From NCBI RefSeq assembly GCF_910592395.1, contig NC_088324.1, positions 3,536,001-3,600,000 on the forward strand: 64,000 bases of DNA, read 5' to 3'. The notes beneath the pieces are model-generated. The model was given only the letters and a program-made list of their open reading frames with translations, was not told where the DNA came from and made no database searches. Shown one piece after another: positions 5,837 through 58,837 of the stretch (the stretch's first letter is position 1; each line of letters opens with the position of its first letter). A program made the position numbers and the translations under genes. Origin of the DNA: Lineus longissimus (Eukaryota > Nemertea > Pilidiophora > Heteronemertea > Lineidae).

Positions 5837-6652
5837 CTGCAATTAAAAGTAGATCTTGTTTTAGTGAGGGATGACCGGTAAATGAAGAATGCAATGACAC
5901 ATCGAATAAATTGCTGATTACTAACAGAATATATTCAGCGTTCAACCTAAAAATAGCATCAAAGCATTTGTCCATGTATAGAAAATAGATTATTTTTGTA
6001 AACCTTCTACATGTACTTTCTATTTTTGTAAAACTTAATATAACACCAGCCTAGTTGTTACTTTTTTTCTAATTTGATTGCTCTCCTGAATTTTCTACGC
6101 CACTGTTTATCATTATATCTCGCTTTTGCAATCAGCGTCCACCACACAGATGTCCGTGGTTCAGTCCATAAAGACCTGAAATGTATTGATAAAAATCAGC
6201 GAGGTCGGACGTAAACACTGGTGATGTGGGCCTCCTGGCCAAAAGTTGTTTAAACGCATAAGGTCCATAAGAAGCTGATAACATGTATAAGTATAAATGA
6301 AGCACTATGACATGACAGACTTCGGTAACCTCCTTGATAAGCAAGGACTCATGTGCATGTAAAGGCAAGTTAAGACCTGTGTTTACAAACAAGCACCTGT
6401 CCCATGGTAGGGCTTCTCACTTCCTGCCTAGACTAGACACCGTCCAGACCTGTTTGAAGTGGACCTACAATATAGTAGGCTCATGTGGGACCTAGTGTTG
6501 GGTGTACATAAATGTACATATAACATAAATATAGGACTTCTTTGAATGGTTCCCTGGCCTGGGTCTCGATAGGATATCAAAATACGGCAACTCTGGATCT
6601 AAAATGATGCCAGGTCATGAGGTGCTGAACTGAATACCAGGAATGGAACGAG

Positions 6653-13001: not shown

Positions 13002-13781
13002 TTAGTGTGTGACCCTATTATTCAAGGAGCCACTAGGGACTAAGTGGGTAGCATGAATATGATCTGACAAATCAGTGAACGCAACAGGACGATTATCACG
13101 GAAAGTGACATTTTTCTTTGAATTGTTCGTAACCCAGAGAATGGCTGCACTTTTCCTGAGCTTTACCAACATGTATGATGGACAATATTTACTGAATTGC
13201 TCAGTAGGCTGCAGCAAAACCTCAGTATGCTTGAGCAACTTAGGAACTTTGCCTTTGACTACAATACTCCTAGTCTGACCTGGTCTCAAAGTCACTGTCT
13301 GTACAGGGGTGAACTGGATACGCCTGGGTCTGACAGTTAAGGTACTGGTTGAAAAGTCAAGTGTACCATTCAATTCCGACAGGGTCCGAGCACCCAAAAG
13401 CAAATATGGTCCGGTAAGGTTGTCTGCAACAACAGCATGAATGCGGAGCTTATGACCTTGGATAAGAAGCTCAATATTTATAGCTTTTGTGACATGCAAG
13501 AATTCACCGTTTCCTATGCGAAAATGTATTGGATCAATGTCCATCTTGGGCAATTTTGAAAGATAAGGAGACTTGTTGACAGATGAACCAGAAACTAAAG
13601 TGCGTGTTGCACCTGAGTCAACAGCAATTACTAATCCCTGCTTATCTGGGAGGTAGCCTTTTACATAATTTTGTGTAGTGAGTTTTAGATCAATTGGCTC
13701 TGGGCCCAAGTATTCAGATTCATGGGATGAAGAATGTACAGGATTATTATTTAAAACATTGTTACAACTAGGGGGCGACAC
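13002..13781 (-). CDS. Gypsy aspartic protease region
   Basis: The retropepsin active-site block VIAVDSGATRTLVSG is followed by a family-like LLLGARTLSELNGTLD near the usual flap/second motif distance. This would mature Gag-Pol. The frame ends at 13002. The continuing pol linker (12825-13000) has frame changes, so the element is defective. Confidence 0.75.
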   Translation of the reverse strand: MSPPSCNNVLNNNPVHSSSHESEYLGPEPIDLKLTTQNYVKGYLPDKQGLVIAVDSGATRTLVSGSSVNKSPYLSKLPKMDIDPIHFRIGNGEFLHVTKAINIELLIQGHKLRIHAVVADNLTGPYLLLGARTLSELNGTLDFSTSTLTVRPRRIQFTPVQTVTLRPGQTRSIVVKGKVPKLLKHTEVLLQPTEQFSKYCPSYMLVKLRKSAAILWVTNNSKKNVTFRDNRPVAFTDLSDHIHATHLVPSGSLNNRVTH

Positions 13782-13789
13782 AATATGGC

Positions 13790-14254
13790 CTGTTGACCGT
13801 CCCCTATCTAAAAATGTGGCTGATAACTAGTATAGTTGGTCGTCTGTTGTTGTCCTTGATTGTTGTTAGCAGAAGGGTCCCAGTAGTTTTGCTGTTGATA
13901 TGGCTGCTGCTCAGACGGGCTATATGTAGGCTGGTGCTGATAATTGTAGCTTGGTGGACGTGGTCGTTGAAACCTGGTATTTGCTGCTCGGGCTGCTGGT
14001 GGGACGAAGTCAGAGGGGAGCTCTCCTCGGGCGACTTGAACCTGGAAGCGGTGGCAATAACGCCAGAAATGACCAGTGCGGCCGCAAAAATGGCAGGGGT
14101 GGCTTTCACGGGTTCGTGGACGGCTTGGGGATTGCGACCGTTTTCGCTGCTTGTGGGCGTAGTCGTCGCTTCGAGACGGGCGGCTGGATCGCGGGTATGG
14201 CGATGTGGGTCTTGGACTGCGTGGTGCGTCTATGTCCTGGCTTTGGAAAGCTGC
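13790..14254 (-). pseudogene. Gypsy gag C-terminus with CCHC zinc knuckle
   Basis: In the frame covering about 14060-14110 the sequence reads CHFCGRTGHFWRYCHR, a CCHC knuckle, followed by a Gln/Tyr-rich linker. It is out of frame with the gag ORF upstream, so at least one indel separates them. Confidence 0.6.
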
Positions 14255-18738: not shown

Positions 18739-18804
18739 CTCAGGAAATCATGGCATACCTATCATAATAATCCTTGATTTAAAGGGCATGTTCACTTTCG
18801 TTTT

Positions 18805-20599
18805 GTGACCAAGTTTTGTGATCCTTGGGAAAACGGAAAAAGCGAGGAATTTGAAAATTGCAGGGATGATACAATGATTAAAATGATTAATATTGGGTGA
18901 AATGACAATTCGTTTACTTGTCATTAACTAAGACAAAAGAACAATTGAACTGATTAGGCCTTGTGAAAATGCCATGATTTTCTAAATATTACTTCAGAAA
19001 TGGGTTGTGCCGGTCATGAGAGCTCCAAATAATCCAATAATTTGATTCATAATTATCAGAAACACCCCAAAAAATGACTTTGAAATTCATCGTTTAAGGG
19101 AGAGTTGACCTCAGATGAACTATTAATTCCTCAAGCCATTTTAAAAATAGCCATTCATTACTTCGAGTTGGGTATTACATGAATCTGTTTGTAACACAGC
19201 AGATTGAACCATTCAACTGTGGGGGTGTGCACTGCGTGCTGGACAACAATGGCCACAGTGAACAATGAAGGCCTAGGGTTCATAGGCCTATAGAATGGCA
19301 GATGTGCTGAGCTGCCATCATTTTCCTATTGAAGGACACAAAAAGCCAATTGTTTGAGTTACCTGGGCCTACTGCTGATGAACTTTCTAATAGTTTTCTT
19401 TACTTTTAGCTCCTAAAAATGTCGTAATAAATGTATTGAATCTCAATATGGCCCTACTCTTTCATAAAAATGACTTGTTCTTCATCAAGAGGGCATAATG
19501 AGAATGAATGATGTCTATAAAAGTGATCAAATCCAAATGGACATCAGAAAGAAAAGAAATGATAATAAAATGAACCATTTCATCGCATTTGCTACAGATA
19601 AGAGTTGGGTTTTCCCCTGGATATCACCAGTCTTCCTGTTGCCTTTTTTTTCTTCAGGGTGTTTCTAACAAATGAAACCAATGGCAAATATGAAAGCGGA
19701 TACCAGTACCATTTCATTTGTGAGAAAAGTATAGTTTGGTGTTCATAAGCCTACTGTCAACACATCTATACTAGGCATGCTTGAAATCCCTCAATTGTGA
19801 AGCACCCACCACAATGAACTGCATGCAGTGAAAACTACCCAGTGGACTTAGGGGACAGACACACCAATAAGAGGACTTTGTATGGCAATGAATGCTTTAG
19901 ATGATAAGGGAAAGAGCAAGCATTTGGCCTTCTGGTTTGATGTTCCCCCCCCCCCCCCCCCGATCAGTGTGATATAGCTTATTATTGTAGTTTGTTTTTT
20001 CTTCTATGAACAGAACTTGTGTTGAACCGTGCAAGGCATACATTTTTAGTTCAACAACAAATGGATTTGATTACATGAGGTTGCCAAAATCATCATCAGC
20101 GCCACCATAGGAGTAAAGAGAAACAATCGGACAGAATTTGCAAACCAGGAAAACATCCCAAGTGCGCATGTGCGATCAATCATTTTTGCCTGGGGCGAGG
20201 TGGCAGATTATGACCAGTTGTTTATCTTTTCTCCAATGGTGGCACTGATGTCAAGTGTGGCAAATGAAATGATGATTACCTCTGAGACATACACTGGAAG
20301 TGTTATTTGTGACAAATAACCCCATATCTAATTTAACACATTATTCTTTCAAAATTAAACCCAAACTATTTTAGCAATTGTCATCTGAACATTGTTATTC
20401 TTCTAATTGCCCGAGGAATTTATTGTCTGGCCATGCTATTGATATACTACTGTGAAGCCTGCAACGCATCTGAAATTGAAAAACGACACTGGTTATTAGA
20501 GAATAAAACTTATGGTATAGGTTGTCCTACCTATCTGCAATCAACTGCCCATAAATGGAATCATCAGTCACATCCCCATCAGTTTATCCACAGTCAGAA
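18805..20599. other. Non-coding 3' region of the transposase-USP transposon
   Basis: No convincing ORF on either strand. It contains a run of about 17 C at 19945-19961. Otherwise AT-rich and unassigned. Confidence 0.4.
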
Positions 20600-20830
20600 T
20601 CACCAGTAATCCAAAGGAACAAAAGATAATCCAGGACTTGAATCCAGCAAAGTACGTTATGAACACAGTCTAGGCCAAACGTCAAATCACCTCAGTATCC
20701 AATGGAACAACAAATAATCCAGGACTTGAATCCAGCTAAAGTATGCTATGAACACAGTCTAGGCCAAAAATTGAACGTCAGAATCATATGAATCATATGA
20801 ATCTAGTCAAACTGCTTTTATGAACATAGT
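20600..20830. repeat. Tandem repeat of about 87 bp downstream of the transposase-USP stop
   Basis: CCAGGACTTGAATCCAG recurs at about 20631 and 20718, and ACAGTCTAGGCCAAA at about 20666, 20754 and 20828. It lies in the 3' non-coding part of the transposon and may hold transposase binding sites or a terminator. Confidence 0.65.
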
Positions 20831-23800
20831 CTAGGCCAAAAAGAAAACATTCAGGGTAAAGTTGTTCCCTTGTTGGTCCCAAGGTGATGCAGCCACTGGT
20901 TGCCTATCATCATCCATCCTCCACCAGATGTTGTTGGGGTCTCTTAGATAGGCGAACCAGTGGCCCACATTGCACTGGTCCCCAGAATGGCACATGATGC
21001 CTTGAATTATCTTGCCATCTAGGGTACCTCCCTCTGGAGGTCTAATCTTGGTCATGCACTTTTGATTGCCTGATCGTCTGTTGACCTCGATTATAGTTAT
21101 AGGTCCATCTACAGTGATCTGAAACCCCTGCGAGTGGCGTTCACAGACTCTCCCATTTCGTCCTTGGAATTGACAGTGACCCTGGAGAATACCTGAATTT
21201 GCAAAGTGATCATGGTAAAGATCGATAAGTGACACTGCTTGGGGGCCACGTGGAACGTTAATCCTTAACACGGTGCCATCCCTCACCAACTGTAAGTCAA
21301 TGTGCCCCAGGGGGCAGTGGAATTGCCCTGGCCACGAAGTGAGAACTCCTTCAGGTATACTGAGTTTTTCCAACAAGCTCATTAGAAATTCTCCTGCATC
21401 CTGGTATACTCCTAGCACATACCCTCTCCCATCAATTGTGGTATTCAGAGTGGTAATGAGTTCCTGGACAGAGAAAGGTGCACCCTGTCCAGCCATCCTG
21501 GCACAAATATCAAGAAAGGTGTTGTCCACAAGATTTGGTTGATCACCTTGTATGTGCTGGCCAAGATTCACATGATTTAAACACTGGAGCACAGCATTGC
21601 TGTAGCAAATGTTTGCGTCATTGATCAGTCGTGATCCTGGATATTGGGGCGGCATGGGCTCATCATTCCTGTCCACATCAGCAATGTTGGTCACTTCAGA
21701 GTCATGGGTGTCAGGGATCTCAGATTGTTGGGGACTTGTGCTCTGTTGTGGTGGGCGTTGTCTTTGTGTCCTACGGAAAACTGGTGTGCGACCCCTTGGC
21801 GCAGTGTAGCGAGGCTGAAGGGGTTCTGGCAGCTTTGGGTCGGCTAGATGACATTTTCTTACTACAGGATCCCGAAACCTCTCCTCAGCACACAGTATCA
21901 TCAGAAGTGCGGCTACATGGGCATCTGACGTGAGCATACGGGAGCCAAGGTCCCTCTTGGCAGCTGTCCCACAAGTCCAACCACAAAGTCTCTGTAGCGG
22001 CCCAGTAAATCCTAGATAGTTCTCCAACTCGCTGTTCCTCGGTGAACCACTCTGTGTGAACACTACTAGAGGCCGTTTCATGTTCCCCGGGTTTCTGTTC
22101 GTCCTGTTTGCCGATGGCATTTTCATCGTTATGATGGTCACTCCTGTCTCGGGCCACTGGAAGTAAGTTTCATTGTTCCAGCCATCCGGAATCTCATCGA
22201 CATTTGTGAAGTAAACACGGGTGGTAACTGGAAGTTCACGTGCCATGTCCCAGTATTCAGCAATACTTTCGAATTGGCCCATTTGAGCACCGATTTCGAG
22301 TTGCTTACAATGGGTAATGTAAGAACAACCCCTACGAACCAAGTACGGTCCAAGAGTGAATTCGTATATCTGCTGTGCACTAAGAGCCGGCAAGTCAAGG
22401 CGGTCTCTGAGTTGACCAATGTCTCCGACTTCAACACTGTTCCACTGAATACTCCTGGCAGAAGGGAACTGCAGCACATGAGGAGGAAGAGTGACTGAGG
22501 GGTCATGCAGGAAGTTACTGATGTTGAGTCGGTGCTTAATCAGCTTCGCCAGGCGAACCTGCTCCTGATCATCCACGAACTTTATGTTGAATTTTGCATG
22601 GAACTGATTGAAATGTGACACTGCAGCTAGCCATATAAGGTAGATACGAGGACAATTCACATAATCATTAGGTATACCATATTTGTTGCAAAATTGTTCT
22701 CCAAGTGGTTGGAGGAACTGATAAGGTATTATGTCCAGGATTTTTTCATCAGCAATAGCTCCATGAAATTGTTCTACTCCGAATCTGAGCTTTCCAACTA
22801 TGATTTTGCTGTTTTTTGTGAGAACAGGGTCGCTGGGAGATGCCGTCATCTCAATTTTACCACTTGTTGGATCAACTTGGAGAATATCCTCATCCCCCTC
22901 ACTAGGCCATATTAGCCTGCAACCATTCTCAGAACACCACTGCTTCAGATTTGTCACATTTTGTTGGCTTACATTATGTGGCACATAGATGTACCCCTTG
23001 TCCACAGCGAGTATCACGAAGTAGTCCGAGGTTCCTTGAAGGAGAGACAGAAGTCCCTGAGGTGCGACCTCACTGTCAGCCTGACTTTCGCATAATTGCA
23101 ACTCAACACCACACAGATTGCTATCACCACACCTTGGGGTGGCTGCTGCAGCCACAGGAAGTGTCAAAACCACATGTCCTGTAGTATCCACCAAAGTAGA
23201 AAAGGTTATGAAATGCCCTCCCTTTTTGGAATAATAACAATCCTTCTGTTGCTCATAATCCATTGAGTTCTGCACCTTCACTTTTTTAGAATCCATGCTT
23301 GCAGCAACAGGCATCCTTGAAGAACCATCTTTTGGATCAGAAAAGTAGGACAGCAACTCACTATGGATGGGGGATTCTCGACCTTTCATATTGGAGTAAA
23401 CATCATTTTTCTCAGAGTCACTTAGGTTACCAAACCACTGCAATGGAAGGCTTGAGCTATTGAGAATGTCAGCACACAACTCAGTCCAGAAAATGTCATT
23501 GGCAGTTGGCAGACCTATATCAAAGTACGCAGCCAAATCACGAAACTCTACGTTACTCCGCATTTTGTGCCGATACAACAATACTCTAGCAGAAGGATCC
23601 AAACTACGGCAGGTTGACTTCTGGGTCCTCCCCTGCTGATGCTCCCACACAAGCAGCCAGAACTGTTCCTTTTTCATGCCTGTGAGATTCTCTAGCTTCC
23701 AATCTGGCATCATCCATGGCTTTCGCATGTGATTCCAGTCCCGTCGTCGGTTCTCAGGCCATTCATGTCTTGGAAACTCAGCATCATAGCAACTGTCTGA

Positions 23801-24091
23801 TACCCCATAAACATATGTTCCATCAGTGTTGTTTTCACTGCGGCTGGAGGTTTGGCCAGGCCTATCGTTGGGACTGGCAGTTTCAGAGTCTACGTCGTTG
23901 TTAGCAGCAGTCTCCGGTTCATCATCAGAAGAGGCGGTGTCCATTGGTTCATCATGGCTGGCGGTGTCCATTGGTTCATCATGGCTGGCGGTGCCGATTG
24001 GTTCATCATGGGTGGCAGTATCAGCGTCATCATGTTGACCATCAATTGTCCCATTGCCTTGGACGTCTGGATTACCTTGGTGATATTGAGC
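20831..24091 (-). CDS. Transposase-USP fusion protein, exon 2
   Basis: An open exon of about 1086 codons after the acceptor CTATTACAG, with no stop. Residues here are numbered from the internal Met at 23971. An acidic linker contains repeats of ASHDEPMDT. A DDE nuclease of the IS4/5-like DDE_Tnp_4 type follows: SMDSKKV (Asp227), AVDKGY (Asp324) and GVEQFHGA (Glu400). A segment at about 662-700 (CGWTCG.. HVAALL) resembles a degenerate SWIM zinc finger. Residues 780-1046 are a ubiquitin-specific protease: Cys box NICYSNAVLQCL (Cys789), QDAGEF at 857, His box GHWFAYLR (His1004) and MDDD (1019-1022). All predicted catalytic residues of both enzymes are present. It would cut DNA at the element ends and could remove ubiquitin from host or transposase proteins. 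The second role is inference. Confidence 0.8.
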   Translation of the reverse strand, partial: AQYHQGNPDVQGNGTIDGQHDDADTATHDEPIGTASHDEPMDTASHDEPMDTASSDDEPETAANNDVDSETASPNDRPGQTSSRSENNTDGTYVYGVSDSCYDAEFPRHEWPENRRRDWNHMRKPWMMPDWKLENLTGMKKEQFWLLVWEHQQGRTQKSTCRSLDPSARVLLYRHKMRSNVEFRDLAAYFDIGLPTANDIFWTELCADILNSSSLPLQWFGNLSDSEKNDVYSNMKGRESPIHSELLSYFSDPKDGSSRMPVAASMDSKKVKVQNSMDYEQQKDCYYSKKGGHFITFSTLVDTTGHVVLTLPVAAAATPRCGDSNLCGVELQLCESQADSEVAPQGLLSLLQGTSDYFVILAVDKGYIYVPHNVSQQNVTNLKQWCSENGCRLIWPSEGDEDILQVDPTSGKIEMTASPSDPVLTKNSKIIVGKLRFGVEQFHGAIADEKILDIIPYQFLQPLGEQFCNKYGIPNDYVNCPRIYLIWLAAVSHFNQFHAKFNIKFVDDQEQVRLAKLIKHRLNISNFLHDPSVTLPPHVLQFPSARSIQWNSVEVGDIGQLRDRLDLPALSAQQIYEFTLGPYLVRRGCSYITHCKQLEIGAQMGQFESIAEYWDMARELPVTTRVYFTNVDEIPDGWNNETYFQWPETGVTIITMKMPSANRTNRNPGNMKRPLVVFTQSGSPRNSELENYLGFTGPLQRLCGWTCGTAAKRDLGSRMLTSDAHVAALLMILCAEERFRDPVVRKCHLADPKLPEPLQPRYTAPRGRTPVFRRTQRQRPPQQSTSPQQSEIPDTHDSEVTNIADVDRNDEPMPPQYPGSRLINDANICYSNAVLQCLNHVNLGQHIQGDQPNLVDNTFLDICARMAGQGAPFSVQELITTLNTTIDGRGYVLGVYQDAGEFLMSLLEKLSIPEGVLTSWPGQFHCPLGHIDLQLVRDGTVLRINVPRGPQAVSLIDLYHDHFANSGILQGHCQFQGRNGRVCERHSQGFQITVDGPITIIEVNRRSGNQKCMTKIRPPEGGTLDGKIIQGIMCHSGDQCNVGHWFAYLRDPNNIWWRMDDDRQPVAASPWDQQGNNFTLNVFFLA

Positions 24092-24550
24092 CTGTAATAG
24101 AACAAGGAATTGTTGCAGTTACTAGTGAGTTATACATGACACTTTGCACTTTGCAGGTGGGCTGCTGTAGGCACATGCCTTCCCTATTTAATACCTTTTT
24201 TCTCCAGAATCAAATGATTTTAGTTTTAATCAGCTGAAGGCTTTGACAAAGTAGTGGTTCATGAACTTACAGCAGTCATCCAATGCATGGCAGTACCAGT
24301 CCCAAGTGTGCAATTTCAGAAACTAGTGGACCAATTCAGAAAGTGCTGATACTTGGTATCAAATGAAAATGTACCATGAATACATTTTAGTTGAAATGTT
24401 ACAATTGCTAGGTAAAATCATTTTATATCTTTAAAACACTGAAACCTGGCAGAGAAAGAACTGACCACCGGTGTAAACCTTGAGGGTAAAATGATGTTTA
24501 CATCGTATTTCTAATCTTTTGCTCTAAAAATCAGGAATCTTCGTTTTAGA

Positions 24551-24822
24551 TACCGTATACGCAAATATTTTTGTGAGGAAAGATTTCGCGATTTGGCCCT
24601 GCACTGACTATTTCGCGAGGAATAATGTTCGCGATGGGATCCCAAAAATCTTTGTAGAAAATTCCGATATTCTCCTGATCGATGGAATTGGTGCTAATCA
24701 CTCTGAAAAAATCACAGAAATTCGTCACTGTGTGGTTGTTTTCCTAGAATTTTCCTTGTTTTGATTTATGTTCGCGGGGAATAATCTTCGCAATACCGAA
24801 TTAAATTATTGTGTATACAGTA
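24551..24822. mobile_element. TA-flanked MITE
   Basis: Ends TACCGTATACGCAA and, reversed, TACTGTATACACAA form imperfect TIRs with TA at both edges. TTCGCG words recur inside. Looks like a Tc1/mariner-type MITE. Confidence 0.65.
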
Positions 24823-25241
24823 AGTAGGCATTTCGTGTGTTACTCAATTTCAAGAGTGCAATAAATCATTGCAATCGACTGATATTTTCTGAAATCGCCC
24901 TTGGGACATGGACTGACCTTACCCCTGCAGCCCCTTATGGAATCTTTGATCTTAAAAAAAGTAAAAACTACCAACCTACGCTATATTTTTTAGTTTTGTT
25001 ATCAGAAACACAACCTAACAAAAAAGCAGTACACCCGGTAATGGTATTTCTAAGAATCTATGAACGTTTTTGGTAGTTTTCACTTTTTATAAACAATCAC
25101 TATTCCAAGTTGTAAAGCCCATTTACAATGTACACAGCATCCTCATCAGAGGAAGCCCTATGCACATTTCATGTACATTTTTTTTGGTTTTCACCCTGGC
25201 CCATATTGCTGGATTGGCAGCCCTTTCTAAACTAGTGGAGA

Positions 25242-25408
25242 TACTGTAAACCCCCTTATTTTCGCTAGTGACTTGATGACCGTATTTCACCCTTTAATCA
25301 AATGTCTCCTATGGCAATCTAAAAATGCATGATAAGAGTAATACAATTTCGTGCCTTTTACTTGTATTTTTGCGTTTAACGAGAAAAACATTTAAGAGGT
25401 TTACAGTA
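25242..25408. mobile_element. Short MITE
   Basis: The left end TACTGTAAACC is matched by its reverse complement at the right end (GGTTTACAGTA). About 167 bp, no ORF, TA at the edges. Confidence 0.6.
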
Positions 25409-25499
25409 CTCCAGAGGATTTTCAAACATGGTGGCTTTCCCGAATTTGACAATGGCCACCTGTTGGCCTGGGTCGTATGTACACACCCTCTTCAATGAA

Positions 25500-25816
25500 T
25501 AGACCTCTTGCCTTAGTCTGACTCAGGGGCCGATTGGCCGGGGGTAAATTCTAATGGCTTCATGAATTGTGAATCCCTGTATCTCAAAATCAACTTGGCC
25601 GATTTTCGCCAAACATTTTACTGAAAGTCTAGATCAGCAACATACCATTTTTTTACAAATCTCTGTAGAATGTTTATCATGTCTACAAGCAGAAAAAGTT
25701 TGGTGAAAATCGGTCCAGTAGATTTTAAGATATAGGGATTCACAATGTATAAACGACATTAGAATTAGCCCCCCCCCCTCCATCAGCCCCTTTATCGGAC
25801 AAAGGCAAGAGGTCTA
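25500..25816. mobile_element. MITE of about 317 bp
   Basis: TAGACCTCTTGCCTT at the left and its near reverse complement AAGGCAAGAGGTCTA at the right. The interior is partly self-complementary, with a poly-C run at about 25770. Confidence 0.7.
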
Positions 25817-25915
25817 TACAAAACCCTCACCAACAGGATGGCAAAGCTGCTCAAATCGGGAAATCGACGATGTTCGAAATGCATTGGTTCACATAGTTCG
25901 GAGGATAATACTTAC

Positions 25916-26026
25916 AAACAAATCTCTATTTATGCAGTAATGCCGAAGATGTCTTTGTAGATTTGAAATTCGCTGTCCACTCTCATGTATCAATGCCCCA
26001 CAACCTTCACATACATGGAGCACCAT
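25916..26026 (-). CDS. Transposase-USP gene, exon 1 (zinc finger)
   Basis: ATG at 26026 opens 37 codons containing VCEGCGALI and LQRHLRHYC, a C2HC finger of BED/C2H2 type, ending at a consensus donor GTAAGT in phase 0. It joins in phase 0 to the acceptor at 24091. A DNA-binding finger at the transposase N-terminus is expected, which supports the exon. Confidence 0.7.
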
Positions 26027-26615
26027 GTCTAAAGCTGGCAGTCTTCATTCAATGCACAAACGTCTAATGTGTTCTGATGGTAGAAAGCATGCTGGAATCT
26101 TGACAAAAGGAACTATTAGGAATGATGATGTAACATCTTATGGTTTCCTTGACCCTATTCAAACACTAGACATTAGACAATATTTTCATGGACAGGGTCC
26201 CTGCAGAAACTCATCTGTTGAATAGATTGTTCTCATTCATGCACAGCTCTATTGTCTGAATGACAGAATACAAAGCAGGTGCTGTCTTTGAATAGCTCAG
26301 CACCTATTATTGATAAAATCCTCCCTTCCAAAAGACCCTATGATCCGGAAAAGTGTTACATTCTCCAGAGAGTAGGCCTAAAGGCACATTACGCAACCAC
26401 AAGTAATCTCAATCAACAATGCATAACCAATTTATAAAGGGTAACAACACCTTTCACCCCCAGAGAGGAAATGGGGCAGTCTGACTCGAACTTCACTAAG
26501 ATGGTCATGTAATCACCTTATAGGCCTAGTAATGACATAACATTCAGGGTGATCATAACGACCCTATTTCTTAACGTCTTAAAACGAAAGTGAACAGGCC
26601 CTTTAGCTAACCTAC

Positions 26616-37737: not shown

Positions 37738-40700
37738 TTATAGACAACTCTGGCAGCCCCACACTCCTTCCCAAAGAGGGAGGTGTGTGAAAAGTTCCAA
37801 TTTTCCGCTTTCTAATACTTTCAGTAACCGGTTTGCTGATGCTCCTTTCTTTGTTAATACATCAGCCAGTTGTTCTTTTCCATTGATCCATTTGAATTTC
37901 TCTATATCCTTTCTTTCAATGGCTTCTCTGATACCACTTATTTCTATTCTCAACCTCTTTTCTGAGACTCCTTTGTTGGATCTGACAGCCTCATGGAGTG
38001 ATTTGCAGTCTGTCACACAAGTTATTCTAGGGCTTTCTTTTATGATTTCCGAAATCAGAGAATTGATAAAGAAAGCATTATCCATTGCATCTGCCATTGC
38101 CAGGGTTTCTCCAGCCAGTGTGCTTCTCACCACTCGTCTTATTTTCTTAGAACTCCAGCATAATGGTGAAATTTTCTGTTCTTCTCCTTCTAGACATATG
38201 AAGTGTCCTCCTTGAGTAGCTCCATTTTCCAAATTTCCAAATGATGCATCACTAAATACAGTCAACTTGGGGTTCTTCAGTTTACAAAACTTAAGTGTCA
38301 CCTTCTCACTTTTGGCTTTTCGGATTACTTTGTTTGTCTCAAACAGATCTCTCACTTTGGCTTCCTTGACTCTTGAGGCTATATTACAAGTATCAAAGAT
38401 GATGTCTGGCCTGCTCTGTCTCCCCAACCATAGAAGTTGGCCAACCTTTTCTCTCATGATCTTTCTTTCCGATTCTGTTACTTCAGCATCCTTTTGGTCC
38501 CATCTTTCTCTTCTCAACTCTATGTATTCTAAATTGTCCTTGTAAAAATTCTGATCCAATCTGATTTGTCCCATGTCACACTGTACCTTTAAGCCAACAT
38601 ACTTGAAGCTTTCTTTGTCCTCTCTCCCAACAACTAGTTCTTTTCTCACGTTCTCTATCACTAGTTTCTCAAACTCAGGTGTCCCAGCCCATAGGAAGTC
38701 ATCTACATGACATGCAAGAATTCCTCTCAGTTGTTCCTTCTCATCATGCCATATGAACACAGCTGGTTCAAGTTTGGACACCACTCCTTCGTATTTGTTC
38801 ATGCATGATTTCACCTTTTTGTACCATTGAAGGGAAGCATCTCCAAGTCCATAGTCACATTTTTCTAACTTCCACAGTTTTCCTTCCTTTTCTTCAGCTT
38901 CTTTTGGAGGTTTTATGTATATCTCTCTTTCTAATCTCTCACCTTGGAGAAAGGCAGATTTTATATCCATTGATTTTGGGGTCCATTCCTTCTGTGCCAT
39001 TATGGCAAGAATTATCTTCAAAGCCTCTGTTGAGCAAGTGGGAGAATCTCTCTCCATTTCAAGATCACTTTCTTCATAGCCTCTCGCTACAAGTCTTGCT
39101 TTTGGCACCAATTTTCCATTCTTTTCTTTCATACAGCATACCCATCTGGTTGAAACAGTTCTTTGTCCTTCATCATTTACAGTTGAGTATACCCTGTGAT
39201 CTTTCCAACTAGTGAGTTCTCTTTCTTTAGCTTCTTCAAAGACACTCTGTTCTGTTATATAAACTTCATTTTCTTGCTCCCCATTCTGTTCATCAGTTGT
39301 CATTATTGTGACTTTCCAATTATCTAGTTCTTCAAGATTCACTGACATGGTCTCAACTTCTCCATTTTCACTAGTAACGCCCATGTTGTACCAGTTCTTA
39401 TACTGTCCCGTCTTTTTTCCAGCTCTGTTGATGACTGTAGCTTTCCTTGTTTCTTCTTCATCTTTGAACTTAATCATTACATGCTGTCCTGGTTTGAGAG
39501 ATGTTGTTTTCAATGTCAATGTTGGAAGTTCTGTGCTGGCATCATCTTCTCTCATTCTTTCTGCATTCTGGTCATCTACCCTTTTTCCTACTATCTCTTC
39601 ATCTTCGTTGTTCACATCAAGATCACTATCTCTCTCTTCTGTTGTCTGGTCTCTTCTCTCATCTTCACTGTCTATCTCTTCTTCATTTGCTGCCTCTTCT
39701 AGTTCACTATTCTTGCCTTCTACTGATTTCATTTCCTTCTCTTCTTCATCAATTTCTATTTTCTTCTCCACTTTCTTCAGTCTGCATACATGTACTCTCA
39801 CTAGCTGGCTTCCATGTCTGACAAAGACTACTACTCCATCTTGTCCTATCACACGACCTGGTCCCCTCCATTCAGTTTCATTGGGTCTTTTGTAGAACAC
39901 TTTATCATTGTTCAAGTACACTACATCTCGGCTGGTCCGAGTTTGTTTCCGCAGAGCTCTTCTGATTCTTTCTGAGCATTCAGCTTCTGTGTATGCACTT
40001 CTAGCTGCATGCATTGCTGTCAGATGTTCTCCAACTTTCTGGCTTGTTGTTACCCCTTCAAGTGCTGGTAGGCTTTCTTCAAGAACAGAGGGTAAGTTGG
40101 GATTAACACCGAACACAAGTTGGTAGGCACTGAATCCATGTATATTGCTCATAGTGTTTTTAGCAATCAGAGCCCAACTCAATGCAGTCTCCCAGCTACA
40201 TTGTTTGTCTGCTTTAACTTTGGACAATGTTTCTGTCAGTGTCATGTTGTGCCTTTCACATATTCCATTGGACCACGGACTGTAAGCTGCAGTCGTGAGA
40301 ATTTCTATACCAAACAAGTGACCCATCTGCACAACTTCTTCATTAGCGAATTCCCCTCCGTTATCTGAAAATATTTTCTTTGGAGCACCAAACCTACTTA
40401 TCCATTGACTGATGAATTTCTCAACAATTTCTGTTCCTGCTTTTGTTTTGACAATTGCTCCTGCACTGTATCTTGTGTAAATGTCTATGTGTAAGAACCA
40501 AAGTGAAGGTTCAAGCTGATGTAGATCCATAGCTACCATTTCATTCCAATTTGTTGCAAGTGGCAAAGAAACTACAGGTCTGCTCGGTGTCTTTTGAAAT
40601 CGTTGACATATCTCACATTCCCTCGAAACCTTCTCAAGCGTCTTCATCATACTTTGGTGCTTGATGCCCGCTTTCACCAGCAGCATTCTCAGTTTCTCTT

Positions 40701-41562
40701 CTGAAGGATGTCCAAATTGACGATGAAGTTTCACTATTACTTTCTCTTTTTCTTTGGTGCTGTTAATCATCAGTACTTGTTGTGAATTCAGTTCTTCTTT
40801 TATGGTTCTTCTCTCAAGCAGATTCAGACAGTAGTGTCCACTCGAGGTTTGTTCTAAATGTACAGTCCTACCAAACAGTTTTGCTTCATCTTTGTTTAGG
40901 TCTAAGATGGCTCCAGCCTTTTTCAACGACTCCTTGCTTAACAATAGAGGCAAGTCTAATTCCACAACGTCAGTTGTAATGTTGCATTTTGTATCACCTA
41001 TGTAAGCTGGGATAGTAATCGTCTTGGAGGCTGTCACCTTGACCCCATCACCGAATCTGTATACGCTGCTGCTGCTTTTTGTTTGTTTAACTGTTGATGA
41101 TCGTTCTCTGTCATTCAACGTTTCAATGTACTCATCAAGCCATTTATTTCCACAGACAGTCTTAGTGCATGCTGTATCTAATATGGCTGTGCCAAATGTT
41201 TCAGTCATGAATATGAGGTTGTGGTTGTCTATTTCACTGGTAAACAATGTTACATTGCACGACTCTTCTTCTGTTACCAATCTTACTACTTCCTTTGAGT
41301 CCTTATGCTCACAATCCCGAGCCCAGTGATATGTACTTCCACAAACAGCACATCTGGATCTCATGCCTTTCTTATCCATTGGATTTGTTCCACGCTGTAA
41401 ATAAGGCTGTCTCTCTGTTGCCTTATTCTTGAAGTAGTGGCTCCTGCTATTTCTGGTTTGGTTGTTTTTGAACATCGCTTCCTGTTTTATTGTCACACCA
41501 TAGTCATTTAAACATTTCGATGCATCGTTTTCTCCAAAGATCCGTTTCAAAGCTGATTTCAT
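37738..41562 (-). CDS. Copia Gag-Pol polyprotein (main frame)
   Basis: 1274 codons without a stop. Domains in order: gag end; CCHC knuckle CAVCGSTYHWARDC; protease ILDTACTKTVCG; pre-integrase HRQFGHPSEEKL; integrase with MDLHQLEP, FSDNGGEF and later ERHNMTLTE; an acidic linker; RT with MDIKSAFLQG and the HVDD catalytic site (normally YVDD); RNase H with FSDASFGNLENGATQGG. The last 18 or so residues are read from flanking DNA, because the element ends at 37797. No start codon of its own: translation would come from the rearranged gag. Confidence 0.85.
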   Translation of the reverse strand: MKSALKRIFGENDASKCLNDYGVTIKQEAMFKNNQTRNSRSHYFKNKATERQPYLQRGTNPMDKKGMRSRCAVCGSTYHWARDCEHKDSKEVVRLVTEEESCNVTLFTSEIDNHNLIFMTETFGTAILDTACTKTVCGNKWLDEYIETLNDRERSSTVKQTKSSSSVYRFGDGVKVTASKTITIPAYIGDTKCNITTDVVELDLPLLLSKESLKKAGAILDLNKDEAKLFGRTVHLEQTSSGHYCLNLLERRTIKEELNSQQVLMINSTKEKEKVIVKLHRQFGHPSEEKLRMLLVKAGIKHQSMMKTLEKVSRECEICQRFQKTPSRPVVSLPLATNWNEMVAMDLHQLEPSLWFLHIDIYTRYSAGAIVKTKAGTEIVEKFISQWISRFGAPKKIFSDNGGEFANEEVVQMGHLFGIEILTTAAYSPWSNGICERHNMTLTETLSKVKADKQCSWETALSWALIAKNTMSNIHGFSAYQLVFGVNPNLPSVLEESLPALEGVTTSQKVGEHLTAMHAARSAYTEAECSERIRRALRKQTRTSRDVVYLNNDKVFYKRPNETEWRGPGRVIGQDGVVVFVRHGSQLVRVHVCRLKKVEKKIEIDEEEKEMKSVEGKNSELEEAANEEEIDSEDERRDQTTEERDSDLDVNNEDEEIVGKRVDDQNAERMREDDASTELPTLTLKTTSLKPGQHVMIKFKDEEETRKATVINRAGKKTGQYKNWYNMGVTSENGEVETMSVNLEELDNWKVTIMTTDEQNGEQENEVYITEQSVFEEAKERELTSWKDHRVYSTVNDEGQRTVSTRWVCCMKEKNGKLVPKARLVARGYEESDLEMERDSPTCSTEALKIILAIMAQKEWTPKSMDIKSAFLQGERLEREIYIKPPKEAEEKEGKLWKLEKCDYGLGDASLQWYKKVKSCMNKYEGVVSKLEPAVFIWHDEKEQLRGILACHVDDFLWAGTPEFEKLVIENVRKELVVGREDKESFKYVGLKVQCDMGQIRLDQNFYKDNLEYIELRRERWDQKDAEVTESERKIMREKVGQLLWLGRQSRPDIIFDTCNIASRVKEAKVRDLFETNKVIRKAKSEKVTLKFCKLKNPKLTVFSDASFGNLENGATQGGHFICLEGEEQKISPLCWSSKKIRRVVRSTLAGETLAMADAMDNAFFINSLISEIIKESPRITCVTDCKSLHEAVRSNKGVSEKRLRIEISGIREAIERKDIEKFKWINGKEQLADVLTKKGASANRLLKVLESGKLELFTHLPLWEGVWGCQSCL

Positions 41563-41781
41563 ACTTTGGAAGTTCAGTTCCTTCGCCGCTGTTAGTGCAA
41601 GTTATCTCATTTTGGCCTAGACCTGCTTTATCTAGAATTTTGAAGGCTAGAACAGCTTCTGGTAATTCTATTTTATGTTTCTTACTAAGATAGTACAGTC
41701 TTTCAAACTCAATGATATACTCCCCAATTGACTGTCCTTCAACTCTTTGGAAATTTTCAAATTTGGTGTAAATGCTGTAGG

Positions 41782-56408: not shown

Positions 56409-58837
56409 CTAAGCACAGAAATCGCAAGTAAAGTCGTCCTCATCCTCCCCATCCCCCGCACATCTGTTATGTGCCCATTCTTGGCATGCTGTGCCCTGTA
56501 TCATGCTATCTTGCTTTGTTGTGCTCCACATTTCGCCACAGAAGACACATTGAGCATCCTCTTCATCAGGTGGATTGTCCTTTTGGATGTCAGTTGATTT
56601 CTTCGGACGCTTGGGCAGTGGTTCATCTCGAGCTGACTTCGTCGGTTTACGTTTTTTCTTCTTTTTCTCATTCTCTTGTGTTTCCTTTGCCTGCTTGGAT
56701 GCTTTCCGTTTGGCCTTCCTTTCCTCAACTGCCTTCTGCTTCTCAGCTTTGGCCCTTTTGTTTTCTTCAAGACTCGACTTGTAGGGGCTGCTGGTCAACA
56801 CTGCGGTGAAACCACGACGTGAGTTTGCTCGTTTATTGGATCTAACAGTAGATGTTACCTTTGGTGGGGGTGAAATCACAAATAGAGAAATAAAAGGGGT
56901 GGCGGATGTTTGAGGTTCTGACGAAGGAGCAGATGTGTTTAGGACTGCTCGCGGAGTACCAGGCATATCTGTGACATCTTGTTGAGTGGCAGGGGCCTCT
57001 CGGACTACTGGCTGACTGGCAGGCGCATCTGGGACTGTTGGCTGAGTGGCAGGGGCCTCTTGGACTACTGGCTGACTGTCAGGCGCATCTGGGTCGACTG
57101 GCTGAGTGGCAGGGGCCTCTTGGACTACTGGCTGACTGGCAGGCGCATCTGGGTCGACTGGCTGAGTGGCAGGGGCCTCTTGGACTACTGGCTGACTGGC
57201 AGGCGCATCTGGGTCGACTGGCTGAGTGGCAGGGGCCTCTTGGACTACTGGCTGACTGTCAGGCGCATCTGGGTCGAATGGCTGAGTGGCAGGGGCCTCT
57301 TGGACTACTGGCTGACTGGCAGGCGCATCTGGGTCGACTGGCCGAGTGGCAGGGGCCTCTTGGACTACTGGCTGACTTGCAGGCGCATCTGGGTCGACTG
57401 GCTGAGTGGCAGGGGCCTCTTGGACTACTGGCTGACTGTCAGGCGCATCTGGGTCGAATGGCTGAGTGGCAGGGGCCTCTTGGACTACTGGCTGACTGGC
57501 AGGCGCATCTGGGTCGACTGGCTGAGTGGCAGGGGCCTCTTGGACTACTGGCTGACTGTCAGGCGCATCTGGATCGAATGGCTGAGTGGCAGGGGCCTCT
57601 TGGACTACTGGCTGACTGGCAGGCGCATCTGGGACTGTTGGCTGAGTGACAGGTTGTTCCACGTCAGTTGGCTGACAAGCAGCAAACTCATGTGGTTCAA
57701 ATGTATCCCTGTTGACCGGATATATCCCTGTCTTTCGGAACCCATTCATCGCTGTTTTGGTAGTTGATGCTCTTGTGTAGGCATTTCCGAACAGTTCGGC
57801 GGTCTGGAATGTTGTCACAACTCTCCCTGGGTGATTGCGTAGCCATTTCTCCAGTTCTTGATCGTAATAGGTCATCAAGGGTTTCATGAAGCTTACGTCA
57901 AGTGGCTGCATCTTATGGGAGCAATGGGGTGGCAGACAGAGGAGCACGACACTGTTATCCCTAGCAAGATCAATGACCTCCAGATTTTTTGTATGAGTGG
58001 CATGTCCATCCAAAATGAGCAATACCGGATTGTCCTTGGTGGCACCAGTAACTTGCAAGAAATGCTTAAACCATTGAACAAAGATGTCGAGCTGCATCCA
58101 ACCACTCTTATGGCATGCATAAATATGGAACCTGGCGGGGCACCATTCATAAGCTCAATTTTCATCCTGACCCGGGGAAATATAAACAGTGGAGGAATGA
58201 ATATTCCTGTGACATTCATACATATCTCTGTTGTAACAAGTTGCTCACGTTCAGCTGACACAATACCTCCAACTTGTTGCCTCCCTGTCTTTGCCAGGAC
58301 TTTTGATGGTCGTAGTAATTCCAGTTTCGTCACAGTGGTGGAAATTGATGCTTGTCGATTGCTGCCTCATAGAGTTCGAAAAATTTCTTCACATTAGCAG
58401 GGTTGAACGACTGAGCCCTTACTGCAGATGTTGCCTCAGGTTGTCTCAATGGAATGTAGTCTGGAATGGGAAAATGGAGAAAACTGATAGAGCTGAGAAG
58501 AAAAGAAATCCATGGCTTGAACATTTACCAAGTTCACTCAACCCTTGCCGAATTTCCTTACACTACAGTAAATTTATAGTAGGCCTAGTTTTCACTTTCA
58601 TGATAATTTGGGGCAAATCATGCGATAGCATACCTTGTAATGGTCCATAACCTTGGCATGACATTTGGCAAATTTGTTCTTGTCGTTACACCTTCGTCGG
58701 AGAGTTGTTTTTGGCACATCGAAGTCGGAACATGCTGTCCTCAGTGAACTGCCATTGTTCACTGCGGCTATAGCTTTTTTCATTGAATCCTCGCTCCATG
58801 ACTGTCTATTGGTCTTTATTTTATAAGTACGGACCAT
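56409..58837 (-). pseudogene. Pogo/Tigger-like DDE_1 transposase gene with repeat and PHD-like end
   Basis: Exon 1 (58634-58837) is a psq-type HTH: SWSEDSMKKAIAAVNNG and FDVPKTTLRRR, donor GTATGC. Downstream parts 58330-58460 and 57893-58333 carry CDETG and SKVLAKTGRQQVGG, then after another shift 56409-58097 has LILDGHATHTKN and PPHCSHKMQPLDVSFMKP. These are the three Asp-bearing blocks of DDE_1. A 20-residue repeat is present about 11 times (56986-57650). A basic region and a C-terminal PHD-like finger CVFCGEMW.. CQEWAHNRC.. CDFC follow. At least two indels break the frame, so it is probably dead as it stands, though the 562-codon 3' part is intact. Confidence 0.75.
56986..57650 (-). repeat. 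60-bp coding minisatellite, about 11 copies
   Basis: Units of exactly 60 bp encode QPVVQEAPATQPVDPDAPAS with small changes (VDPD/FDPD, PAS/PDS). Because 60 is a multiple of three, several frames on both strands stay open across the array. Confidence 0.95.

Follow-up and report, generated by a model that had tools for sequence, protein, structure and literature searches.

Within a window of 64,000 nucleotides from the nemertean Lineus longissimus (the whole stretch of DNA analyzed, positions 3,536,001 to 3,600,000 of the forward strand of contig NC_088324.1), we characterized a DNA transposon whose transposase of the DDE type is joined in one chain to a ubiquitin-specific protease (USP, peptidase C19). 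As judged from sequence comparison, the USP is complete, under selection and catalytically plausible, and it represents a fixed C-terminal domain of the transposase, being encoded in the same frame, retaining its catalytic boxes and bearing the marks of purifying selection. The element is probably a DNA transposon of the cut-and-paste kind that is autonomous and was active recently; for two copies of its family, insertion was established to occur at AAATTT with no duplication of the target site. Its anatomy suggests that the element tampers with the protein-marking system of the host when moving.

An initial annotation, made from the letters of the window alone, had placed transposase and USP in a single exon, and this was borne out by an open reading frame (ORF) on the minus strand (20831-24118) running through 1,095 codons without interruption, in which Pfam recognized UCH at E 3.5e-10 and, as that annotation had expected of a check for UCH/Peptidase_C19, above the gathering score (40.4 versus 23.9 bits; the homologue P0004 reached 51.3 bits). 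The zinc-finger exon proposed upstream was recovered as well (26026-25916), connected in frame by a predicted GT..AG splice (25916/24091) and yielding a predicted protein of 1,123 amino acids (P0001), 1,086 residues of which derive from exon 2. All residue numbers given here refer to P0001 and equal those of the initial annotation plus 49. With this shift, the catalytic residues were found where they had been placed: Asp227, Asp324 and Glu400 correspond to D276, D373 and E449 of the DDE core, Cys789 and His1004 to C838 and H1053 of the USP, and the QDAGEF and MDDD motifs are present with DAGEF at 907-911 and DDD at 1069-1071. The SWIM-like segment had to be abandoned, since the motif CxCx(5-60)CxH has no match in P0001 and Pfam reports none either. 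A match of the ORF to DUF2719 (Pfam 0.0045, below cut-off) was disregarded. Besides the main frame, the ORF list gives only frames of 133 and 142 amino acids that overlap it, and no other long ORF within the element.

USPs usually carry a zinc ribbon of paired CxxC motifs. In the element this site is altered to C935, H939, C982 and C992, which are invariant in six aligned USP sequences and may bind zinc. The replacement of the paired CxxC is compatible with a domain hydrolyzing another modifier (SUMO, NEDD8, FUBI or an ISG15-like protein) or acting as a plain protease, and so is the title of a structure entry reporting the best match, USP36, with a Fubi probe. Comparison of the USP profile with the PDB gave 68 sequences at E 1e-3 or better, with USP36 and USP14 leading at ~3e-9 and the numbers 36, 14, 12 and 6 near the top. 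All 60 of the 60 matches listed are USPs, that is, ubiquitin carboxyl-terminal hydrolases, and the Cys, DAGEFL, His and D/N boxes are all canonical, leaving activity on another modifier rather improbable. Predicted structures were too poor for use (predicted local distance difference test, pLDDT, of 33 for the DDE part and 50 for the USP part), a point against the main reading given below. In the Foldseek results for the USP model, USPs came first, yet these results were dropped as fold evidence because no entry reached E <= 0.001; USPL1-SUMO entries, a further hint at another modifier, stood low among them, the model being of low confidence. For the DDE profile, the PDB returned just one chance match (E 1.1).

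In the source genome (391,118,348 bases in 30 contigs), 59 matching rows were grouped by hand into loci. At least 38 loci of the transposase-USP family were obtained, counting the best 42 of 84 candidates scored, and at all 38 loci grouped USP sequence follows the transposase. Relatives lacking the USP were considered among the loci without a USP row in the first listing and ruled out: L027 and L029 carry the USP in broken frames, and USP sequence is present in all five of L064-L068, in two as short pieces (~20 residues in L064, E 4.6e-5 when five small stretches were searched; ~65 residues in L066). In 16 of the 29 examined loci (L001-L008, L011, L012, L018-L023) an uninterrupted frame spans both domains, a count resting on L001-L030, which stand for 29 of the 38 loci. 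Beyond this genome, P0003 (955 amino acids, from a separate database record) likewise holds transposase and USP in one chain. P0002 and P0004 represent the transposase half and the USP half, respectively; for each of them the longest contig given measures 5,278 bases, and this shared figure suggests that they sit on one contig. A search for DDE-alone homologues again gave P0002 and P0003 and nothing else among the best 8,000 candidates scored, and viral contigs gave no match. That a transposase and a host USP gene were joined by chance or by an assembly error is refuted by the copies, with 38 loci, 16 of 29 open frames and P0003 in another record, so the probability of such a join is practically negligible. 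The initial annotation had named a missing UCH match, halves that are always separate genes and an assembly join as grounds for rejection; none of these was encountered.

The multicopy nature expected there was confirmed in the source genome: eight whole-ORF copies on eight contigs show 1-8 substitutions in each pairwise comparison of 6,269-6,285 aligned bases, a span of ~6.28 kb that leaves out the outermost ends. Other lineages are ~43-63% identical over the main matches to the transposase part, and one of them comprises at least 11 copies (L015, L018-L026, L030), the long pieces of which are 99.2-99.98% identical to L018. Within the USP domain, identity between lineages amounts to 36-54%. 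The Cys, His and Asp/Asn catalytic boxes are kept in L001, L011, L015, L017, L018 and P0003.

Selection was assessed on ten pairs from five lineages (L001, L011, L017, L018, L028, of which L017 and L028 are broken copies); pairs with L015 were excluded, L015 being of the same lineage as L018. Synonymous sites proved saturated, with proportions of synonymous differences (pS) of 0.75-0.90 in the DDE domain and 0.79-0.87 in the USP, and for this reason the proportion of nonsynonymous differences (pN) was compared by domain in place of dN/dS. It amounted to 0.23-0.37 for the DDE domain and 0.29-0.44 for the USP; the linker between them, an internal control of 33-80 codons that is less surely aligned, reached 0.58-0.72. 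With values well below that of the linker, both enzymes are under purifying selection. Damaged USPs in some copies count against the main reading given below: L013 lacks the His box and L028 the Cys box, and one among the eight near-identical copies has W1066S in its USP. Transposons do capture gene pieces, and the USP could accordingly have been picked up once from a host gene and tolerated as a passenger. Its occurrence at every locus counted and in other database records, its catalytic residues being mostly kept between such diverged lineages, and its low pN relative to the linker make this very improbable. It is also at odds with the profile search for a cellular relative, which among 2,037 candidates of similar length gave none at E <= 1e-3; only P0004 matched.

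The DDE-USP linker of L015, L018 and L023 contains an 81-bp in-frame tandem repeat, variable in copy number between otherwise near-identical copies, the ORF measuring 1,102 amino acids in L018 and 1,129 in L023, with one unit fewer in L015. Upstream of the ORF, L018 holds ~1.17 kb in excess of L020 (L049, L051), beginning with AGCTCACCTC...GAGGTGAGCT. Repeats ~111 bp apart lie 3' of the ORF in L018-L022, L024 and L025, where L018 diverges from the other copies; the 3' side of this subfamily varies between copies.

The transposon found at 18780..26604 by the initial annotation is present there, its ends being refined to 18784-26601. Matching inverted ends of more than 20 bp had been described, and arms of 30 nucleotides (18780-18809 and 26576-26605) indeed match at 90%; trimmed of three target bases per side, 23 of the 27 outermost nucleotides match. 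The end sequence has two matches in the window at <=3 mismatches, both being the element ends, and none in 100 shuffles. The zinc finger of exon 1 is also present in subfamily L011 (E 1.6e-9) and in the homologue P0002. Its general presence in the family is called into question by seven of eight other stretches (L014, L015, L017, L018, L020, L027, L028), in which it was not found; among these seven, upstream sequence of more than ~1.5 kb was at hand in L018 and L020 only. The predicted intron contains nested inverted repeats (25496-25820; 61 nucleotides at 84% and 49 nucleotides at 78%), perhaps a small palindromic element carried along. The layout is summarized in Table 1.

Table 1. Features of the transposase-USP element, given as positions in the window
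Feature	Position	Strand	Basis
Whole DNA transposon, 7,818 bp	18784..26601	- (coding strand)	Copy comparison and paralogous empty sites of two other copies
Outer flank AAA, half of target AAATTT	18781..18783	.	Copy comparison; target inferred from empty sites
Outer flank TTT, other half of target AAATTT	26602..26604	.	Copy comparison; target inferred from empty sites
Terminal inverted repeat, 3' end of gene	18784..18809	+	Inverted-repeat arm 18780-18809
Terminal inverted repeat, 5' end of gene	26576..26601	-	Inverted-repeat arm 26576-26605
Exon 1, 37 codons, Cys/His zinc finger, BED-like	25916..26026	-	Pfam zf-BED 0.028, below cut-off
Predicted intron, GT..AG, phase 0, with nested inverted repeats	24092..25915	-	Sequence
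Exon 2: acidic repeats, helix-turn-helix, DDE domain, conserved C-terminal block, linker, USP domain, stop	20831..24091	-	
Helix-turn-helix of DDE endonuclease type	23489..23605	-	HTH_Tnp_4 E 0.01, family best 5.9e-4; below cut-off
DDE core, D276 to E449 (D276, D373, E449)	22772..23293	-	Triad aligns with ISL2EU-type transposase
Conserved block after DDE core (NYLGFTG...DAHV..ALL...DPKLP..LQP)	21779..22021	-	Taken to be where the SWIM-like segment of the initial annotation lies; not SWIM
USP (peptidase C19) domain: C838 box, DAGEFL, CPLGH (C935/H939), C982, C992, GHW (H1053), MDDD	20834..21643	-	

The insertion behavior was deduced from the ends of ten copies. AAA precedes the 5' end in nine of nine and TTT follows the 3' end in nine of ten, each of the two triplets occupying ~3% of the window positions as background. 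Subfamily L011 is bounded in the same manner (AAA, then GGGGCTGTTCA...TGAACAGCCCC, then TTT), and in L012 the flanks are TAT and TTT. With nine joined flanks as queries, paralogous element-free sites were recovered for three, among the best 40 of 899 candidates scored. At site C6b the two empty paralogs read are 100% identical and gapless with AAA/TTT present once; at site C10 the two read are 97-98% identical, again gapless with a single AAA/TTT, one of them having AGA for AAA. The single AAA/TTT in gapless empty sites shows that no target site is duplicated, and for C6b and C10 that nothing is lost either. Duplications of TA, TTA, TTTA and TTTCA, as read from single copies, were rejected on the ends of the ten copies and the empty sites. 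Some observations weigh against this reading: copy C6a is followed by AAG instead of TTT, site C2 lacks 3 nucleotides beside the junction relative to the three paralogs read, and six of the nine joined flanks had no paralogous match among the best 40 of 899 candidates scored.

One copy (G000:C6, ~6145471-6153295; L010, L016, L047, L048) lies at AAA/TTT inside the apparent RNase H part of a Gypsy-type retrotransposon, and uninterrupted relatives of this site occur elsewhere in the genome. The joined flank of copy C19 has a reading frame open across the junction and gave no significant Pfam match.

For the transposase, the initial annotation had proposed an IS4/5-like core. Part of this stands: the IS5 side is indicated weakly by sequence and independently by the insertion behavior. 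The expected DDE_Tnp_4 match stayed below threshold, at 0.15 and 12.1 bits versus a gathering score of 24.8 in P0001, next to HTH_Tnp_4 at 0.01. Among nine family members, HTH_Tnp_4 appears in six (best 5.9e-4) and DDE_Tnp_4 in six (best 0.01), all below cut-off, and none of the nine reached the DDE_Tnp_4 gathering score. The source genome has at least 150 DDE_Tnp_4 matches (the best 150 of 1,317 candidates scored), among which open frames of the THAP-HTH-DDE (ISL2EU) type and of the Harbinger type were noticed in L069-L088; L069 and L070 are proteins with THAP, HTH_Tnp_4 and DDE_Tnp_4, which is the ISL2EU layout. Aligned by hhalign with the ISL2EU-type proteins L069, L070 and L073, the family scored 39.0 at E 4e-4 and a probability of only 35%, and D276, D373 and E449 pair, as read from the alignment, with the IIDCSE, ADRGF and VEQ motifs of L069. 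Family controls (a DDE_1 protein and a copia protein from the window, the USP domain, and the reversed family versus both sets) lay at 12.1-21.9, the positive control of ISL2EU versus Harbinger at 93.6, and ISL2EU versus the DDE_1 protein at 24.0. This low probability and the score with Harbinger-type proteins at control level (21.2, E 0.085) tell against the assignment that follows. A passage in PMC4482050 quotes as criterion for PHIS (PIF/Harbinger-ISL2EU-Spy) that catalytic regions can be aligned from end to end at E below 'e-4', a value obtained there with a program different from hhalign. On account of the weak colinear sequence match together with the strong match in insertion behavior, the element most likely falls on the PHIS side of the IS5-like transposons. 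We use the term Spy-like and refrain from placing the element in Spy itself, as its protein is far longer and the comparisons included no Spy sequence.

From this architecture, a mode of action can be proposed. The zinc finger and the helix-turn-helix would bind the element ends, the DDE domain would perform cutting and joining, and the tethered USP would strip ubiquitin close to the transposase. The most likely substrate would be the transposase itself or its complex partners, which would thereby escape ubiquitin-directed destruction; to the reading that the USP protects the transposase complex from degradation we assign a probability of about 0.5. The USP might instead act on the target, taking ubiquitin off histones or off repair factors where the DNA is cut or the element inserted, and thus opening chromatin or steering gap repair. 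Both protection of the transposase and action on ubiquitinated chromatin had been offered as possible roles by the initial annotation. The same anatomy would serve this purpose, as a fused enzyme would work locally, and the authors describing Ginger suggested that the OTU and Ulp1 domains of transposases may act on repair, activating repair factors (passage in PMC2836005). Apart from the USP, the Pfam scans of the ORF and the family members revealed no domain for binding histones or ubiquitin, and for the VTD deubiquitinases of Helitrons the authors suggested the prevention of degradation of transposition proteins as a possible role (passage in PMC9741609). Nothing in the sequence tells action on the target from self-protection, and we rate the former as the less likely of the two, though a serious candidate. 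In a more far-reaching reading, less likely than not, the family could tentatively be regarded as a separate group of duplication-free, AAATTT-inserting transposons, whose USP would work in cis in the complex and be obligatory for movement or protein survival.

Further mobile-element sequences were noted in the window, all on the minus strand. An open frame of 1,287 amino acids (37738-41601) with rve and RVT_2 represents a Copia-type retrotransposon, and one of 581 amino acids (56409-58154; DDE_1 3.1e-17) is a pogo/Tigger-type transposase by domain; both served as hhalign controls. A third open frame of 274 amino acids (13002-13826) weakly resembles a gag-type aspartyl protease (0.0035, below cut-off).

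Zisupton transposons carry an Ulp1-type protease. Mutator-like elements carry an Ulp1 domain as well (passage in PMC2836005), and both share with the element described here a modifier protease on a transposon while differing by the Ulp1/SUMO type of that protease and by their transposases. In Ginger1, an OTU or Ulp1 domain is located at the C-terminus of a transposase with a Gypsy-type integrase core that generates CCGG/CCGT duplications (passage in PMC2836005). In both, a DDE transposase bears at its C-terminus a cysteine protease of the ubiquitin/SUMO type; in contrast to Ginger1, the element ORF has no Pfam match to rve, no duplication is formed, and the protease is a USP and not OTU or Ulp1. 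Helitrons with OTU or VTD deubiquitinase domains, the activity of VTD having been measured on K48 and other chains (passages in PMC9741609), resemble it as mobile elements with a deubiquitinase but differ in their rolling-circle Rep-helicase and in the deubiquitinase classes. A counterpart in domain content, compared by description only, is Trichomonas vaginalis XP_001314237.1, for which a single sentence in PMC2836005 states Transposase_11 and Peptidase C19 in one protein; that passage gives no element, ends, copies or selection. Transposon-borne ubiquitin/SUMO-type proteases as a general idea are thus already known, and the novelty claimed by the initial annotation has to be narrowed by these precedents. 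For PHIS and Spy-type elements, the open-access literature searched, with most subscription papers and Repbase outside its scope, gave no description of a USP. What appears to be new is the combination, in a single family, of many copies, a fixed USP and Spy-like insertion.

Regarding ISL2EU, the similarity comprises the order of helix-turn-helix and DDE core, the triad aligning with THAP-HTH_Tnp_4-DDE_Tnp_4 proteins of the same genome, and terminal inverted repeats starting with GG. ISL2EU elements produce AT target duplications and mostly possess a second ORF with YqaJ (passage in PMC4482050), whereas neither an AT nor any other duplication and no second long ORF are seen here. Spy elements are alike in lacking a target site duplication, in their AAA/TTT flanks and in combining DNA binding and DDE in one protein (passages in PMC11304231 and PMC4482050). 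They are reported there from arthropods, cnidarians and molluscs, intact ones measuring 1,165-5,910 bp with a transposase of ~700 amino acids, the latter size serving as description and not as definition; the 7,818 bp, the 1,123-amino-acid protein and the USP domain set the present element apart from those described. By inserting into AAATTT without duplication it comes close to the mechanism of Spy, which has been proposed as a tool for gene transfer (passage in PMC11304231). Fusions of ubiquitin/SUMO-type proteases with the machinery of mobile elements now number at least four unrelated cases (Ginger1, Mutator, Helitron and the USP element described here), and a USP kept across deeply diverged lineages, some with near-identical copies, offers a natural system for investigating why transposons carry such proteases.

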